DNA from: Thermotogaceae bacterium
Lineage (GTDB): Bacteria; Thermotogota; Thermotogae; MWEM01
Direction of reading: 5' to 3'
Length of the DNA stretch: 49,801 bases
NCBI GenBank assembly: GCA_030445775.1
Contig: JASUTC010000006.1
Coordinates: 1-49,801 of the forward strand
Below, piece after piece: positions 34,225 to 40,085 of the stretch. The first letter of the stretch is position 1; each line of letters opens with the position of its first letter. The notes beneath the pieces were generated by a model. The model was not told the origin of the DNA, ran no database searches, and worked only from the letters and a program-made list of their open reading frames with translations. The position numbers and the translations under genes are program-made.

Positions 34225-34971
34225 TTGAAAAAAATCGTACTTAAAGAAAAAAAGGTATCTGATGATTTTCTTATTGCATCATTTGAATTTGAGAATCCGT
34301 TTAATGACAATACTCAGGATTTTATAAAACCCGGTCAATTTTTAATGCTTAAAAACAGAACAGAACCGATTTTAGCCAAGCCATTTTCAGTATTAAATAC
34401 AAACAGAAACGGTTTTAAAATGTTAATTAAAATCATAGGAAGGTTCACTGATTATTTAAGCAATGCAGTCTCCGGAGAAACCTTTCTTTACAGAGGACCG
34501 TATGGCACTGCCTTTGAAAAAAAACTTGATTTGTCAAAAAAAATCATTACAATTGGTGGTGGTTGCGGCGCAGCACCTATCTTATTTTTTAATGAGCATT
34601 ATTTCGAAAATATAGAAAAAACAATCATAGGATTTAAAAATGATTCTATAAGGAATTTGATTAATATCGATGAAGCAGTTTATGAATCGCTGTCCGGGAA
34701 AACCGTTATTGATGAATTAAATGAATATCTATTGCTTAGAAACAAGGTAGGAAAACCAATTGTTCTGGCTTGTGGAAGTTCAAGTATGTGTCAGGAATTG
34801 CACAAACACTCATTAGAAATGAATTATCAATTATTTGTCTCGCTTGATGAAAGAATGGGTTGTGGAATGGGAATGTGCAAAGGGTGTCCTATAAAAACAA
34901 AGTCCGGGATTAAAATGGTATGTAAAGACGGTCCTGTTTTCAATTCCGATGAAATCATTTGGGAATGGTGA
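34225..34971 (+). CDS. pyrK: Dihydroorotate dehydrogenase electron-transfer subunit PyrK
   Basis: FAD and [2Fe-2S] subunit that passes electrons from dihydroorotate oxidation by PyrD to NAD+. 248 residues. The flavin-binding barrel contains KPGQFLML and AKPFSV, followed by RGPYGTAF and the nucleotide motif IGGGCGAAP. The iron-sulfur cysteines lie in CGMGMCKGCP and, after an 11-residue gap, VCKDGPVF. The start is TTG at 34225, seven bases after GAGGTG. An out-of-frame ATG at 34221 opens a seven-codon frame overlapping this start. The stop overlaps the pyrD ATG by one base. The partnership with class 1B PyrD is clear. Confidence 0.94.
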   Translation: MKKIVLKEKKVSDDFLIASFEFENPFNDNTQDFIKPGQFLMLKNRTEPILAKPFSVLNTNRNGFKMLIKIIGRFTDYLSNAVSGETFLYRGPYGTAFEKKLDLSKKIITIGGGCGAAPILFFNEHYFENIEKTIIGFKNDSIRNLINIDEAVYESLSGKTVIDELNEYLLLRNKVGKPIVLACGSSSMCQELHKHSLEMNYQLFVSLDERMGCGMGMCKGCPIKTKSGIKMVCKDGPVFNSDEIIWEW

Positions 34972-35891
34972 TGCATTTGAAAAACAATATTCTTTCTGTA
35001 GATTATAAAGGAATCAACATTAAAAATCCCATTGTTATCGCTTCCGGTCCCGCTGGTAACGGAGAAGAATTATCTCAAACAATTGATTTGTCAAGAATCG
35101 GCATGTTTACTTCAAAAACAGTAACTATGAATCGAACAGATGGAAATCCCCCTCCAAGAATTGTTGATGTCTACGGGGGTATAATTAATTCTATCGGATT
35201 ACAAAACCCCGGTTTTCAATCCTTTATGACAGAAACTCTTCCCTTTTTGGAAAATTTAAGAATTCCGGTGATTGTCAGCTTGGCTTCAAATTACGCTGAA
35301 GAGTTGGAAACAATGGTAAAAGCGCTGGATACCCGAAACATCAAATTTTTAGAAATCAACTTTTCTTGCCCCAATGTTGACAAGGGAAGAGAACCCATAG
35401 GAACAGACCCCAATAAGATCTTTCACACTGTTAAAAAATTGAAAAAACTGACAAAAAAAAACATATTGATTAAATTTGCTCCGGCAGACGCCATATTAGA
35501 ACTGGTACAAGCAGCCATCTCAGCAGGAGCTGAGGGTGTCGTATTGTCAAATTGTCCCAAAGGTATGAAAATTGACATTAATACCATGAAACCAATATTA
35601 AAAAGAGAATTTGGTGGTTTTGCAGGGCCGGCTATAAAACCAATTACTCTCAATCAAGTCTATCAGGTAAGAAAGCAATTCAAGGATATTATGATTATTG
35701 GAACCGGCGGAGTCATAAATCATGAAGACGCCTTGGAATATATAATGGCGGGGGCAAATCTTGTAGGAATTGGCTTTGGTGTTATGTTAGATCCCTTTAT
35801 CCCCATTCAAATTATTGAACAATTGGAACAATGGTTTAAACTCAGAAATTTAAACTACTCTTCTGTTTTTTGTAAAGCGCAATCGTTATGA
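34971..35891 (+). CDS. pyrD: Dihydroorotate dehydrogenase, class 1B catalytic subunit
   Basis: Oxidises dihydroorotate to orotate, the fourth step of UMP synthesis, as a cytosolic FMN enzyme paired with PyrK. About 306 residues. The N-terminal NPIVIASGPAGNGEE and SIGLQNPGF are typical. The catalytic cysteine of class 1B lies in NFSCPNVDKG. IKFAP, LSNCPKGMKID and the FMN phosphate-binding IIGTGGVINHEDALEYIMAGA with VGIGFGVM close the site. The ATG at 34971 overlaps the pyrK stop as TGATG, with GGGA upstream. A TTG at 34959 would add four residues. The next gene, pyrB, is separated by 193 bases holding its own leader. Confidence 0.95.
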   Translation: MHLKNNILSVDYKGINIKNPIVIASGPAGNGEELSQTIDLSRIGMFTSKTVTMNRTDGNPPPRIVDVYGGIINSIGLQNPGFQSFMTETLPFLENLRIPVIVSLASNYAEELETMVKALDTRNIKFLEINFSCPNVDKGREPIGTDPNKIFHTVKKLKKLTKKNILIKFAPADAILELVQAAISAGAEGVVLSNCPKGMKIDINTMKPILKREFGGFAGPAIKPITLNQVYQVRKQFKDIMIIGTGGVINHEDALEYIMAGANLVGIGFGVMLDPFIPIQIIEQLEQWFKLRNLNYSSVFCKAQSL

Positions 35892-35900
35892 CAAGGTAAA

Positions 35901-35925
35901 GACATGTTGTTTTAAACACAATGTC
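35901..35925 (+). promoter_or_regulatory. Imperfect palindrome upstream of the pyrB leader (possible operator)
   Basis: GACATGTTGT and ACACAATGTC are inverted repeats matching at eight of ten positions around TTTAA, centred near 35913. Possible -10 boxes (TATGTT 35933, TAGAAT 35938) follow within about 20 bases, so the palindrome would cover a -35 region. The binding protein is unknown. Confidence 0.35.
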
Positions 35926-35973
35926 AATTTCCTATGTTAGAATCTCCCTGATAACAAAAACGAGGTTGAAAAG

Positions 35974-36054
35974 ATGTATAAACGAATGAATTTACGGTAT
36001 ATAAAATTGCCATACGCTTTTTTTAAATTTAAAAACCACCATTACTGTTTTTAG
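35974..36054 (+). CDS. Putative pyrB leader peptide (26 codons)
   Basis: A short frame, MYKRMNLRY at the start and NHHYCF at the end, with GAGG eight bases before its ATG. Its codons for Ala-Phe-Phe-Lys-Phe-Lys are written in a nearly pure T/A run, and its TAG stop falls at the loop/3'-arm junction of the terminator hairpin at 36034-36072. A ribosome reaching the stop would cover the 5' arm and prevent terminator folding. This is the arrangement of the E. coli pyrL-pyrBI attenuator, where low UTP slows RNA polymerase and lets the ribosome catch up. Translation is inferred, not shown, and the peptide has no resemblance to PyrL. Confidence 0.6.
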   Translation: MYKRMNLRYIKLPYAFFKFKNHHYCF

Positions 36055-36072
36055 TAATGGTGGTTTTTTTTT
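36034..36072 (+). terminator. Intrinsic terminator in the pyrB leader (attenuator)
   Basis: A perfect 13-base stem, AACCACCATTACT with AGTAATGGTGGTT, closes a six-base loop GTTTTT and runs into nine T residues. It ends 12 bases before the pyrB ATG and overlaps the end of the leader frame, so it should attenuate transcription into pyrBICFE. Confidence 0.92.
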
Positions 36073-36084
36073 AGGAGGGACAAA

Positions 36085-37008
36085 ATGATAAAAAACAGAC
36101 ATTTGATTGACCCTATGGACTTTTCAACGGAAGAGATTGACAAACTACTTTCTCTTTCAGAACAAATTTCCAAAAACCCTGAAAACCATTCAAAGAAATG
36201 TTCTGGAAAGATTTTAGGCAGTCTTTTTTATGAACCAAGTACCAGAACAAGATTAAGTTTTGAATCTGCTATGATGAGACTCGGAGGGCAAGTCATTGGT
36301 TTTTCTGAAGCAAATTCAAGTTCGGTTTCAAAAGGTGAAAGCATCGCTGATACTATTAGAACTGTTGCATGTTATGCGGATATTGTAGTCATGCGTCATC
36401 CCAAGGAAGGTGCCCCAAAAGTAGCCTCTATGTATTCTGATGTACCGGTTATCAATGCAGGTGATGGCGGTCATCAACATCCTACTCAAACGTTGACGGA
36501 TTTACTCACTATTCGTACTGTAAAAGGATCCTTAAACAATCTAAAAATTGGTTATTGTGGTGATTTAAAATTTGGAAGAACCGTCCACTCTTTAATAAAG
36601 GCTCTTTCAAGATATCCCGACAATGAAATGCACTTGATCTCTCCAAAAGAGTTAAAGATTCCTGATTACATTAAAGAAGAAATTTTAGACAAGCAATCTA
36701 TTAATTACTTTGAACACGAAAAAATCGAAGAATGTATCAATGATTTGGATATTTTGTATATGACGAGAGTGCAAAAAGAAAGGTTTTTCAACGAAGAAGA
36801 TTATATTCGTCTAAAAGACACGTATATCTTAGATAACGAAAAAATGAAAAAGGGGTCGGATCAAATGATCGTGTTGCATCCACTTCCAAGGGTGAATGAG
36901 ATCGCTTACGAAATCGACAACGATCCAAGGGCTTATTATTTCAAACAAGCAAAAATGGGAATGTACGTACGGATGGGTTTAATTTCCATGTTACTGGGGG
37001 TGTGTTGA
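36085..37008 (+). CDS. pyrB: Aspartate carbamoyltransferase catalytic subunit
   Basis: Joins carbamoyl phosphate and aspartate, the committed step of pyrimidine synthesis. 307 residues. The carbamoyl-phosphate signature [20 protein letters not shown], the SSVSKGES 80s-loop, the [12 protein letters not shown] motif and the HPLPRVNEI aspartate-binding loop are all present. TTAGGAGGGAC gives a strong ribosome binding site that directly follows the leader terminator's U-tract. The regulatory chain PyrI is encoded one base after the stop as a separate gene. T. maritima instead has a PyrB-PyrI fusion. Confidence 0.97.
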
Positions 37009-37009
37009 A

Positions 37010-37444
37010 ATGATGACGATAAACACCATTGAAAATGGTATCGTGATCGATCATATCCGAGCCGGATACGGTGTTGAAATTTTTAATTATCTGGGTTTGG
37101 ACAAAGTAGATTATACAGTTGCCTTAATCATGAATGTAAACAGCAAAAAGCAGGGGAAAAAGGATATTATAAAAATTGAAAATGAGATTAACTTCGATCT
37201 AAGCGAACTGGGGTTAATCGATCCGGATGTCACAATTAATATCATTCAAAATCACACTATTACAAAAAAACTAAAACTGAATCTACCGAAAGTGGTGGAA
37301 AATGTGATTAAATGTAAAAATCCCAGATGCATAACCTCTGTTGAACGTCATCTGACACACGTTTTTTATTTGGTAGATGAAAAGAAAGGGGTTTATCGAT
37401 GCAAATATTGCGATGAAAAATATGCTTTGAGAAATAGAGTATGA
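37010..37444 (+). CDS. pyrI: Aspartate carbamoyltransferase regulatory subunit
   Basis: Allosteric subunit that binds ATP, CTP and UTP and assembles PyrB trimers into the holoenzyme. 144 residues. The N-terminal nucleotide-binding domain contains [11 protein letters not shown]. The C-terminal zinc domain has the four cysteines in CKNPRC and CKYC, needed for contact with PyrB. GGGGGTG at the end of pyrB precedes ATG-ATG, so either of two adjacent ATGs may be used. The stop shares four bases with the pyrC start. Its presence implies feedback control of the enzyme in addition to the transcriptional attenuator. Confidence 0.96.
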
Positions 37445-38667
37445 ATAACAACCGATTATTGATCAAAAATGCTTTCGTTTGCGATAAAGACACTTATGAA
37501 AAAAAAGATGTGTTGGTTGAAAACGGTTTTGTAAAAGCTGTTAAAAAAGGCATCAATGCGGATTGCAGTGTAATAGATGGTAGCGATCAAATATTGATGC
37601 CCGCATTTGTTGACTTACACGCCCATTTTCGCGATCCCGGATATACCAATAAAGAAGATATCTTAAGCGGTTCACAGGCGGCTGTCAGAGGGGGATATAC
37701 AACGGTAAATCTTATGGCAAATACCCTTCCTGTCTGTAACGGTGATAAACTTGTAGAAAGAAATCTAGAAAAGGCTAAAGAGATTGATTTGATAGATATC
37801 TTTCAAGTTTGTTCGATTACAAAAGATTTTAATGGAAGAGATTGTCAGCATATCGAAAAAATCACTAGTAAAGGTTGTAAGATGATCTCCGATGATGGTA
37901 ATGGAGTCGAATCTGATGCGGTCATGAAAAATGCAATGGAAATCGCTTATTCAAAGGGGTTAACCGTGTCATCACATGCGGAATATAAGCAAATCAGTAA
38001 AACTGATACCAGGAAATCAGAAAACCTGATGACCCGAAGAGACTTGTCGTTATGCGAAGAAACGAAAGCCCACTTGCATATGGCACATGTAAGTACAAAA
38101 GAAGCTGTTGAAATGATCGCCAAAGCAAAAACAAAAGGTATTAATGTTACTTGTGAATGTACACCTCATCATTTAGTCCTTACTGATACCACCTTTTATA
38201 TAGTTCACCCTCCACTGAGAAAGCAGGATGACGTTGAGGCTTTAATCAAGGGAATCCATGATAAAACTGTAGACTGTATCGCAACTGATCATGCACCGCA
38301 TACTACTCGGGATAAAAAAGAAGGTGCACCGGGAATGAGCGGCATTGAACTTGCCTTTTCAATTTGCTATACACATCTTGTAAAAACAAAGAAAATATCG
38401 TTGATGAAATTATCAGAATTATTGTCTTACAATCCCTCACAAATACTGGGTATCAATAAAGGAATCGTTCAAAGGGGAGTTATAGCGGATCTCACTTTGA
38501 TAGACCCGGATGAGGAGTTCGAAGTCCATGGATCGGATTTATATTCAAAAGGCAAAAACACCTCATTCGAAGGGAAACGATTAAAAGGAAAAATCAAATT
38601 AGTTATTAAAGATGGAATTGTGAAATATGAAAATGATCATATAGTTGAAAGGAGACAAGATGGATAA
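37441..38667 (+). CDS. pyrC: Dihydroorotase
   Basis: Closes carbamoyl aspartate to dihydroorotate. It is a zinc amidohydrolase of the type I class, 408 residues. Metal ligands are visible in [10 protein letters not shown], the ISDDGNG aspartate, SSHAE, HMAHVS and [16 protein letters not shown] and the GAPGMSGIE loop are typical. The ATG overlaps the pyrI stop (ATGA), and the gene overlaps pyrF by eight bases. It is slightly shorter than the usual 420-430 residues, but no core motif is missing. Confidence 0.95.
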
Positions 38668-39529
38668 ACTTTTTGTTAATGTAAGAGAAAAAGGACCGAT
38701 TTGTATAGGATTGGATACATCAGTTGATTATATACCGGAATCAATCAACAAGAAGTATGATCGTGTAGAAGATCGGTTATTTGAATTTAACCGGGGAATA
38801 ATTGAATCAACAAAAGAAATTGCCGCTGCTTTTAAAGTGCAAATTGCCTACTATGAAGCCGAAGGGATTCAAGGTCTGTTAGCTTATAAACGAACCTTAG
38901 ATTATATCCGAAAAGAAAAGATTCCATTGATTGCCGATGTAAAGCGCGGAGACATTTCAAAGACTGCTCAAATGTATGCGAAAGCACACTTTTCAGGAGA
39001 TTTTGAAGCAGACATGATAACAGTGAACATGTATATGGGTTCAGATACACTTGAACCATATGAAAAATATCTCAAATCAGGTAAGGGATTATTTGTTTTA
39101 TTAAAGACTTCTAATCCGGGTTCGGGAGACATTCAAAACTTGAAAACGGATTCCGGGAAATATGTTTATCAGAAAATGATCGATCTTTTGGAAAAAAAGG
39201 GTCAAAATTTGATGGGGTCTTCAGGTTATTCGGCCATAGGGGCGGTCGTTGGATGTACACATGTTGAAGATGGCATTGCCATTAGGAAAAGAATGAAAAA
39301 CACCTTTTTTTTAATACCTGGTTATGGTGCACAGGGAGGTACAGCCAGTGATGTTTCAAAATACCTCATACATGGAAATGGCGGCGTTGTCAATTCCTCT
39401 CGAGGCATTCTTCTTGCGCATAAAAATGACAAATGGAAGGATTTAGAATTTGATGAAGCTGCAAGAGAGGCGGCAGTTGAAATGAGAACAAAAATCATGG
39501 AAGAACTGAAAAAGCGGGAGGAAGATTGA
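38660..39529 (+). CDS. pyrF: Orotidine-5'-phosphate decarboxylase, type 2 family
   Basis: Decarboxylates OMP to UMP. At 289 residues it belongs to the longer type 2 group (Mycobacterium/Myxococcus-like), as shown by CIGLDTSVDYIP, FKVQIAYYEAEG, the catalytic IADVKRGDI (D-K-x-x-D) and the PGYGAQGG phosphate-binding loop. The group differs from the roughly 200-240-residue type 1 enzymes. The ATG at 38660 follows AAAGGAG inside the end of pyrC. An upstream in-frame start at 38645 lacks support. It sits in order between pyrC and pyrE. Confidence 0.94.
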   Translation: MDKLFVNVREKGPICIGLDTSVDYIPESINKKYDRVEDRLFEFNRGIIESTKEIAAAFKVQIAYYEAEGIQGLLAYKRTLDYIRKEKIPLIADVKRGDISKTAQMYAKAHFSGDFEADMITVNMYMGSDTLEPYEKYLKSGKGLFVLLKTSNPGSGDIQNLKTDSGKYVYQKMIDLLEKKGQNLMGSSGYSAIGAVVGCTHVEDGIAIRKRMKNTFFLIPGYGAQGGTASDVSKYLIHGNGGVVNSSRGILLAHKNDKWKDLEFDEAAREAAVEMRTKIMEELKKREED

Positions 39530-39530
39530 T

Positions 39531-40085
39531 ATGGTTGTATTTGAAGCATTAAAAAAAACCGGAGCACTATTGGACGGACACTTTTTACTCAGCTCCGGTA
39601 AACACAGTGAAAAATACATCCAATGCGCAAAATTGTTACAATACCCGAAAATTGCAGAAGAAGTTGTTGCTGTCGTAACCCAAAAAATCAACTTGGATTT
39701 CGATACAATCATCGGACCTGCCATGGGCGGGATTATTCCGGCATATATTCTTGGAAGACAAAATGACAAAAAAACGATTTTTGCTGAGAGAGTTAATAAC
39801 AAAATGGCTCTCAGAAGAGGATTTGAAATCAAATCAAATGAGAAAATCCTGATAATGGAAGATGTCATCACAACCGGAAAATCATCTTTGGAAGTTAAAA
39901 AATTAGTAGAAAAATATGGTGGAAAAGTAGTCGGTTTTTCCTGTATAGCAAATAGGGGACTGGCTAATCTTAACCTTCCTGTTTTTGAAGCCATAAAAAT
40001 AGAATTTAAGACATATGAACCTGAAAACTGTCCGTTGTGCATCAAAGGAGATACTCCTATAAAACCCGGGAGTAGAAAACTTTAA
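39531..40085 (+). CDS. pyrE: Orotate phosphoribosyltransferase
   Basis: Transfers phosphoribose from PRPP to orotate to make OMP, the step before PyrF. 184 residues. The PRPP-binding motif ILIMEDVITTGKSS is near residues 102-115, and LLSSGKHSEKYIQ and the flexible-loop region FAERVNNKMALRRGF are typical. GGGAGGAAG precedes the ATG, one base after the pyrF stop. It closes the pyrBICFE series. No terminator is visible after it. The C-terminal NCPLCIKG cysteine pair is seen in a subset of the family. Confidence 0.95.
   Translation: MVVFEALKKTGALLDGHFLLSSGKHSEKYIQCAKLLQYPKIAEEVVAVVTQKINLDFDTIIGPAMGGIIPAYILGRQNDKKTIFAERVNNKMALRRGFEIKSNEKILIMEDVITTGKSSLEVKKLVEKYGGKVVGFSCIANRGLANLNLPVFEAIKIEFKTYEPENCPLCIKGDTPIKPGSRKL

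Follow-up and report, generated by a model that had tools for sequence, protein, structure and literature searches.

A candidate pyrBI-type attenuator with a leader frame ahead of pyrB in a member of the Thermotogota

The window analysed here, 49,801 nucleotides of a contig from a Thermotogaceae bacterium, contains a cluster of pyrimidine genes in which a short leader frame and a strong terminator lie directly ahead of pyrB. With a probability of roughly two in three, we propose that pyrB-pyrI-pyrC-pyrF-pyrE are regulated by a pyrBI-type attenuator that couples transcription to the ribosome and would probably respond to UTP. What has been observed is that the elements are present and strong, that an antiterminator is missing and that leader frames recur in the Thermotogota. 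The weight of the case rests on the comparative data, the statistics within the window being modest. We regard the element as a genuine candidate for attenuation of this type, well formed and part of a broader pattern.

The SecA encoded in the window has its nearest PDB matches in chains 3din, 4ys0 and 3jux, which are SecA of Thermotoga maritima, and this makes a Thermotogota source likely. Pfam searches confirmed pyrK, pyrD, pyrB and pyrI and supported the assignments of pyrC, pyrF and pyrE. The gap between pyrD and pyrB (35892-36084) holds both the leader frame and the terminator. The features of the locus are as follows.

34225-34971, plus strand: pyrK-like, dihydroorotate dehydrogenase B electron-transfer subunit (Pfam DHODB_Fe-S_bind, FAD_binding_6)
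34959-35891, plus strand: pyrD, dihydroorotate dehydrogenase (Pfam DHO_dh, 223 bits)
35901-35925, no strand assigned: imperfect palindrome GACATGTTGTTTTAAACACAATGTC, immediately 5' of the putative -10 (from sequence)
35935-35943, plus strand: putative extended -10 promoter TGTTAGAAT, with a start near 35950 (read from sequence)
35962-35965, plus strand: GAGG Shine-Dalgarno site for the leader frame (from sequence)
35974-36054, plus strand: leader frame, 26 codons plus TAG, peptide MYKRMNLRYIKLPYAFFKFKNHHYCF (from sequence and frame tests)
36018-36024, plus strand: T7 run, where RNA polymerase may pause in a UTP-dependent manner (from T-run statistics)
36031-36068, plus strand: terminator hairpin, arms 36031-36047 and 36052-36068, loop 36048-36051 (from folding energy)
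36064-36072, plus strand: T9 tract of the terminator (from sequence)
36073-36079, plus strand: AGGAGGG Shine-Dalgarno site for pyrB (from sequence)
36085-37008, plus strand: pyrB, aspartate carbamoyltransferase catalytic chain, Clostridia-like (Pfam OTCace_N/OTCace)
37010-37444, plus strand: pyrI, regulatory chain (Pfam PyrI, PyrI_C)
37441-38667, plus strand: pyrC-like dihydroorotase (Pfam Amidohydro_1)
38645-39529, plus strand: pyrF, OMP decarboxylase (Pfam OMPdecase)
39531-40085, plus strand: pyrE-like orotate phosphoribosyltransferase (Pfam Pribosyltran)

An earlier, sequence-only reading of this DNA had described a 26-codon frame with its own GAGG site, a TAG stop at the boundary between the loop and the 3' arm of a terminator, nine T residues ending 12 bases ahead of pyrB, and a U-rich tract before the hairpin, and all of these were recovered. 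The GAGG is spaced 8 nt from the leader ATG at 35974, the stop codon occupies 36052-36054 at the loop/3'-arm junction, and the T9 tract ends at 36072, 12 bases before the pyrB ATG at 36085. The stem had been underestimated at 13 bp; it comprises 17 pairs, of which 16 are Watson-Crick and one is G.U, around a loop of 4, and its predicted energy is -22.4 kcal/mol (z -7.5 relative to shuffled sequences). The T7 run ends 6 nt upstream of the hairpin, and the 40 nt preceding the hairpin contain 19 T. Runs of at least 7 T occur in 1.6% of random 40-mers from the genome and in 2.9% of 40-mers from the DNA of the locus (P 0.016-0.029), a feature that is not universal in relatives.

From the end of the hairpin to the pyrB ATG there are only 16 nt, wholly taken up by the T tract and the ribosome binding site, so that a promoter cannot fit and pyrB mRNA must cross the terminator. 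Our consensus terminator scan missed this terminator because its stem runs into the T tract, and a dedicated scan recovered it. We then considered how often such an arrangement occurs in this genome, using the 234 genes with a confident start and counting terminators within 70 nt upstream of that start. Seven genes (about 3%) had one; the stem ahead of pyrB was the longest of the seven, and at no other of these did a separate leader frame in the intergenic region end within the hairpin. Of the other two frames found, one was the end of an upstream gene and one ran across a tRNA-like stretch. When leaders were shuffled, a frame preceded by a Shine-Dalgarno site and reaching the hairpin from at least the same distance upstream arose with P 0.033, and any Shine-Dalgarno frame reaching the hairpin with P 0.09. 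Taken alone, the window data are thus suggestive, not decisive, of a leader frame beyond chance. These values (P 0.03-0.09 for the leader frame alone) and the 3% frequency speak for an ordinary terminator of pyrKD, in which case the leader frame would have no role and pyrB would be transcribed in some unrecognised way. The gap too small for a promoter speaks against that explanation, as do the terminators that recur ahead of pyrB across the class, and we consider it very improbable.

In the proposed attenuation mechanism, RNA polymerase, having either read on from pyrKD or started at a promoter near 35940, would transcribe the leader and then the terminator. With ample UTP, the polymerase would outrun the ribosome, the 17-pair hairpin would form and transcription would end. 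With low UTP, the polymerase would be slowed in the U-rich tract (36018-36030), and the ribosome on the leader would catch up; on reaching the TAG within the loop, it would cover the entire 5' arm, so that the hairpin would be blocked and pyrB made. We infer that translation starts at 35974, that the polymerase pauses when UTP is low and that UTP is the signal. The putative -10 promoter is without a good -35 box, was absent from the consensus scan and appears weak by consensus. The palindrome beside it was considered as the operator of a regulon and rejected, being present as a single copy in the genome when up to 3 mismatches were allowed.

For comparison, we gathered the sequences upstream of pyrB across the class. 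In many lineages pyrB is directly preceded by a terminator. Nine other genera (G023/G016/G020, G046, G048/G058/G080-082, G013, G017, G060, G079, G005 and G076) have a frame, preceded by a Shine-Dalgarno site, that runs into or across this terminator or stops at its base. The layouts vary. Frames read through to the pyrB start, like E. coli pyrL, in G046 (MAVRRFERKKVCNIKALPFPYMCFPFPAENFIFLYIRGSFQNPFYFAQRGYVG), G023 and G048/G058/G080/G081/G082, and the frame of G013 stops 7 bases ahead of pyrB. The stop falls in the loop or 3' arm in G017, G060 and G076 (MNNEFNKKSIFLHNLFLKQGISFSLYEINYGTLIFV), the last of these, from a distant genus, having its TAG at the loop/3'-arm junction in exactly the layout of the window. 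In G079 and G005 the stop is at the hairpin base. A T-rich stretch precedes the hairpin in most relatives and is weak or missing in genus g25, G060 and G005. The g25 genomes (G048/G058/G080/G081/G082) have two tandem terminators before pyrB; at their loci (L006, L008, L189, L190, L191) one leader frame crosses both, its stop overlapping the pyrB start.

A Fisher test with one genome per genus, in which genus g3, whose leaders are without a Shine-Dalgarno site, was counted as a miss, gave P 9.6e-8 for 11 genera including the window and 3.3e-7 when the window was left out; since several genera share similar hairpins, the lineages are not fully independent and the true P is weaker than these figures. 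The sequences of the leader peptides show no conservation, openness of the frame alone being kept, and no codon-position-3 bias was seen in the g25 frames, so that coding of the leader frames is not proven. Missing codon selection fits a leader that matters only through its translation, and it equally fits a non-coding stretch left open by chance. The nine genera keep a Shine-Dalgarno leader frame while the peptide drifts. The refuting condition set out in the sequence-only reading, a hairpin retained without its leader frame, does occur in G002 and in a G078 contig, where the pyrB terminator belongs to a purine riboswitch.

Full genes may also serve as leaders. Eight Thermotoga-like genomes (genus g22 and G050; L150, L151, L152, L155, L157, L159, L167, L169) carry a fused pyrBI, and the gene before it has its stop codon in the loop of the intervening terminator. 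This upstream gene encodes dihydrofolate reductase, with a C-terminus identical to PDB 1cz3 over 64 residues. In four genomes of another family (L153, L161, L162, L164), an upstream gene of HD-GYP-like appearance ends at the base of a terminator located 32-38 nt before pyrB, where coupling of a similar type may operate.

G002, of the same family and the closest relative, and the similar G078 contig have a purine riboswitch whose downstream terminator precedes pyrB (L149:1128-1230 in G002 and L148:126-228 in G078; 71.7-75.6 bits against a cut-off of 37). The conserved C indicates the guanine type. Frames running in frame into pyrB in these two sequences were rejected as leaders, the stretch being the riboswitch. 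The contig G078:C377 (L148) is G002-like and sits within the bin of another family with 6% contamination, so it is probably a stray. The riboswitch adjoins the pyrBI genes in both, that is, purine control of pyrimidine synthesis, and we know of no earlier report of a purine riboswitch in this position. The layout of the window is therefore not conserved at the family level, and within the family one signal acting on the terminator ahead of pyrB has been swapped for another.

This exchange bears on the possibility that the terminator in the window is the expression platform of an undescribed switch, either a riboswitch or an RNA-binding regulator, and that the leader frame arose by chance. Like the riboswitch of G002 and G078 at this very place, PyrR sites ahead of pyrB (RF00515) in Clostridia relatives of the window's PyrB, above the cut-off in 2 of 18, are in keeping with such a switch. 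Searches of the window leader, on the other hand, found no Rfam family above its cut-off. The purine aptamer (RF00167) was not found upstream of the terminator, the genome's one copy lying elsewhere, and sub-threshold matches to microRNA and sRNA models, considered as signs of a riboswitch, were dismissed as artefacts of a perfect hairpin. The sequence-only reading had seen no PyrR-type motif, and the RF00515 model agrees, scoring 21.5 bits against a cut-off of 54. While pyrR is present in other genera of the class, no pyrR gene passed the cut-off in the assembly of this genome, which is 86% complete (best match 34 bits against 138). We rejected PyrR control of this pyrB, there being neither an RNA motif nor, in that incomplete assembly, a gene. 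Comparable frames in nine other genera also count against an undescribed switch, as does the upstream pairing described below, and we think it quite unlikely.

The window PyrB shows 72-74% identity to Clostridia (74% to Clostridium) and about 35% to most Thermotogota. This likeness to Clostridia and unlikeness to most of the class suggest that PyrB/PyrI (36085-37444) were acquired by horizontal transfer. Since PyrR sites occupy the same place in some of the Clostridia relatives, the gene and its control element have different histories.

Trp-type control and most riboswitch platforms need an antiterminator. No strand upstream of the window hairpin paired with its 5' arm better than shuffles did (z +0.64), and the same was true of the relatives with leader frames. 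In controls, E. coli pyrBI gave z +0.96, thrL z -4.5 and trpL z -0.66, the weak trpL value meaning that this test misses some antiterminators. Trp-type antitermination at the window was rejected, the competing strand not being found. With no antiterminator, ribosome occupancy is the simplest way of blocking the hairpin.

Attenuation could be coupled to the ribosome and still report on translation capacity or a charged tRNA, such as that for Phe or Tyr, the U-rich codons then reflecting base composition. Such a signal would fit two observations: many lineages have leader frames entering the hairpin although U-rich tracts are not universal, and Phe and Tyr are abundant in the window peptide. Against it, the antiterminator that trp/thr-type control requires was not found, although the thrL control shows a strong one; the lineages have no codon run in common; most hairpins are preceded by a U-run or a T-rich stretch; and the target is always pyrB. 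We consider this signal unlikely and UTP the better fit.

The layout resembles that of E. coli and Salmonella pyrL-pyrBI (L188), where likewise a short Shine-Dalgarno leader frame and a U-rich stretch, with no antiterminator, lead to a GC hairpin and T tract directly before pyrB; by this analogy, aspartate carbamoyltransferase would be the enzyme controlled in both. The model of E. coli pyrBI attenuation includes RNA polymerase pausing at low UTP (PMC10135430, PMC5021804). There are also differences: pyrL (44 codons) crosses the hairpin and stops just before pyrB, whereas the window frame stops in the loop; the phylum is another; the response to UTP is in our case predicted; and the window peptide has no similarity to the pyrL peptide, as had been stated from the sequence. 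E. coli rph-pyrE (L220) offers a second parallel, translation running up to the terminator of a pyr gene. The Thermotoga relatives resemble it in using the full dihydrofolate reductase gene as leader, unlike the window, where the leader is a separate short frame and not a gene. The PyrR-binding attenuator also attenuates pyr operons, and the purine riboswitch of G002/G078 has the same position and terminator role, but the window lacks the motif of the one and the aptamer of the other. Attenuators of the trp, thr and his type share a leader peptide and terminator with the window, but their competing antiterminator was not found there.

To our knowledge, UTP-sensing attenuation without a regulatory protein has been documented mainly in enteric bacteria. 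The earlier suggestion of an origin independent of the enterics is plausible, and within the Thermotogota the element may be partly inherited. In the open-licence literature covered, which does not include the main review of pyrimidine attenuation, we found no earlier description of a Thermotogota pyr attenuator. The main text of a T. maritima transcriptome paper mentions neither attenuation, pyrimidine nor leader peptides. This type of attenuation is already known; the candidate described here has its anatomy in a deep-branching thermophilic phylum.

We give an even chance to a wider reading, in which ribosome-coupled attenuation of pyrB is a main form of pyrimidine control in much of the Thermotogota, repeatedly assembled and swapped with riboswitch or PyrR control of the same genes. 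Its layouts would differ in where the leader ends, whether in the loop, at the base of the hairpin or only at the start of pyrB, and in some the leader would be an entire upstream gene, for example that of dihydrofolate reductase. The anatomy of UTP-sensing attenuation in such a phylum, with several independent-looking layouts, would show that it evolves easily. It would also imply tight coupling of transcription and translation in these cells, and, were the wider reading true, hyperthermophiles such as Thermotoga would depend on such close coupling.
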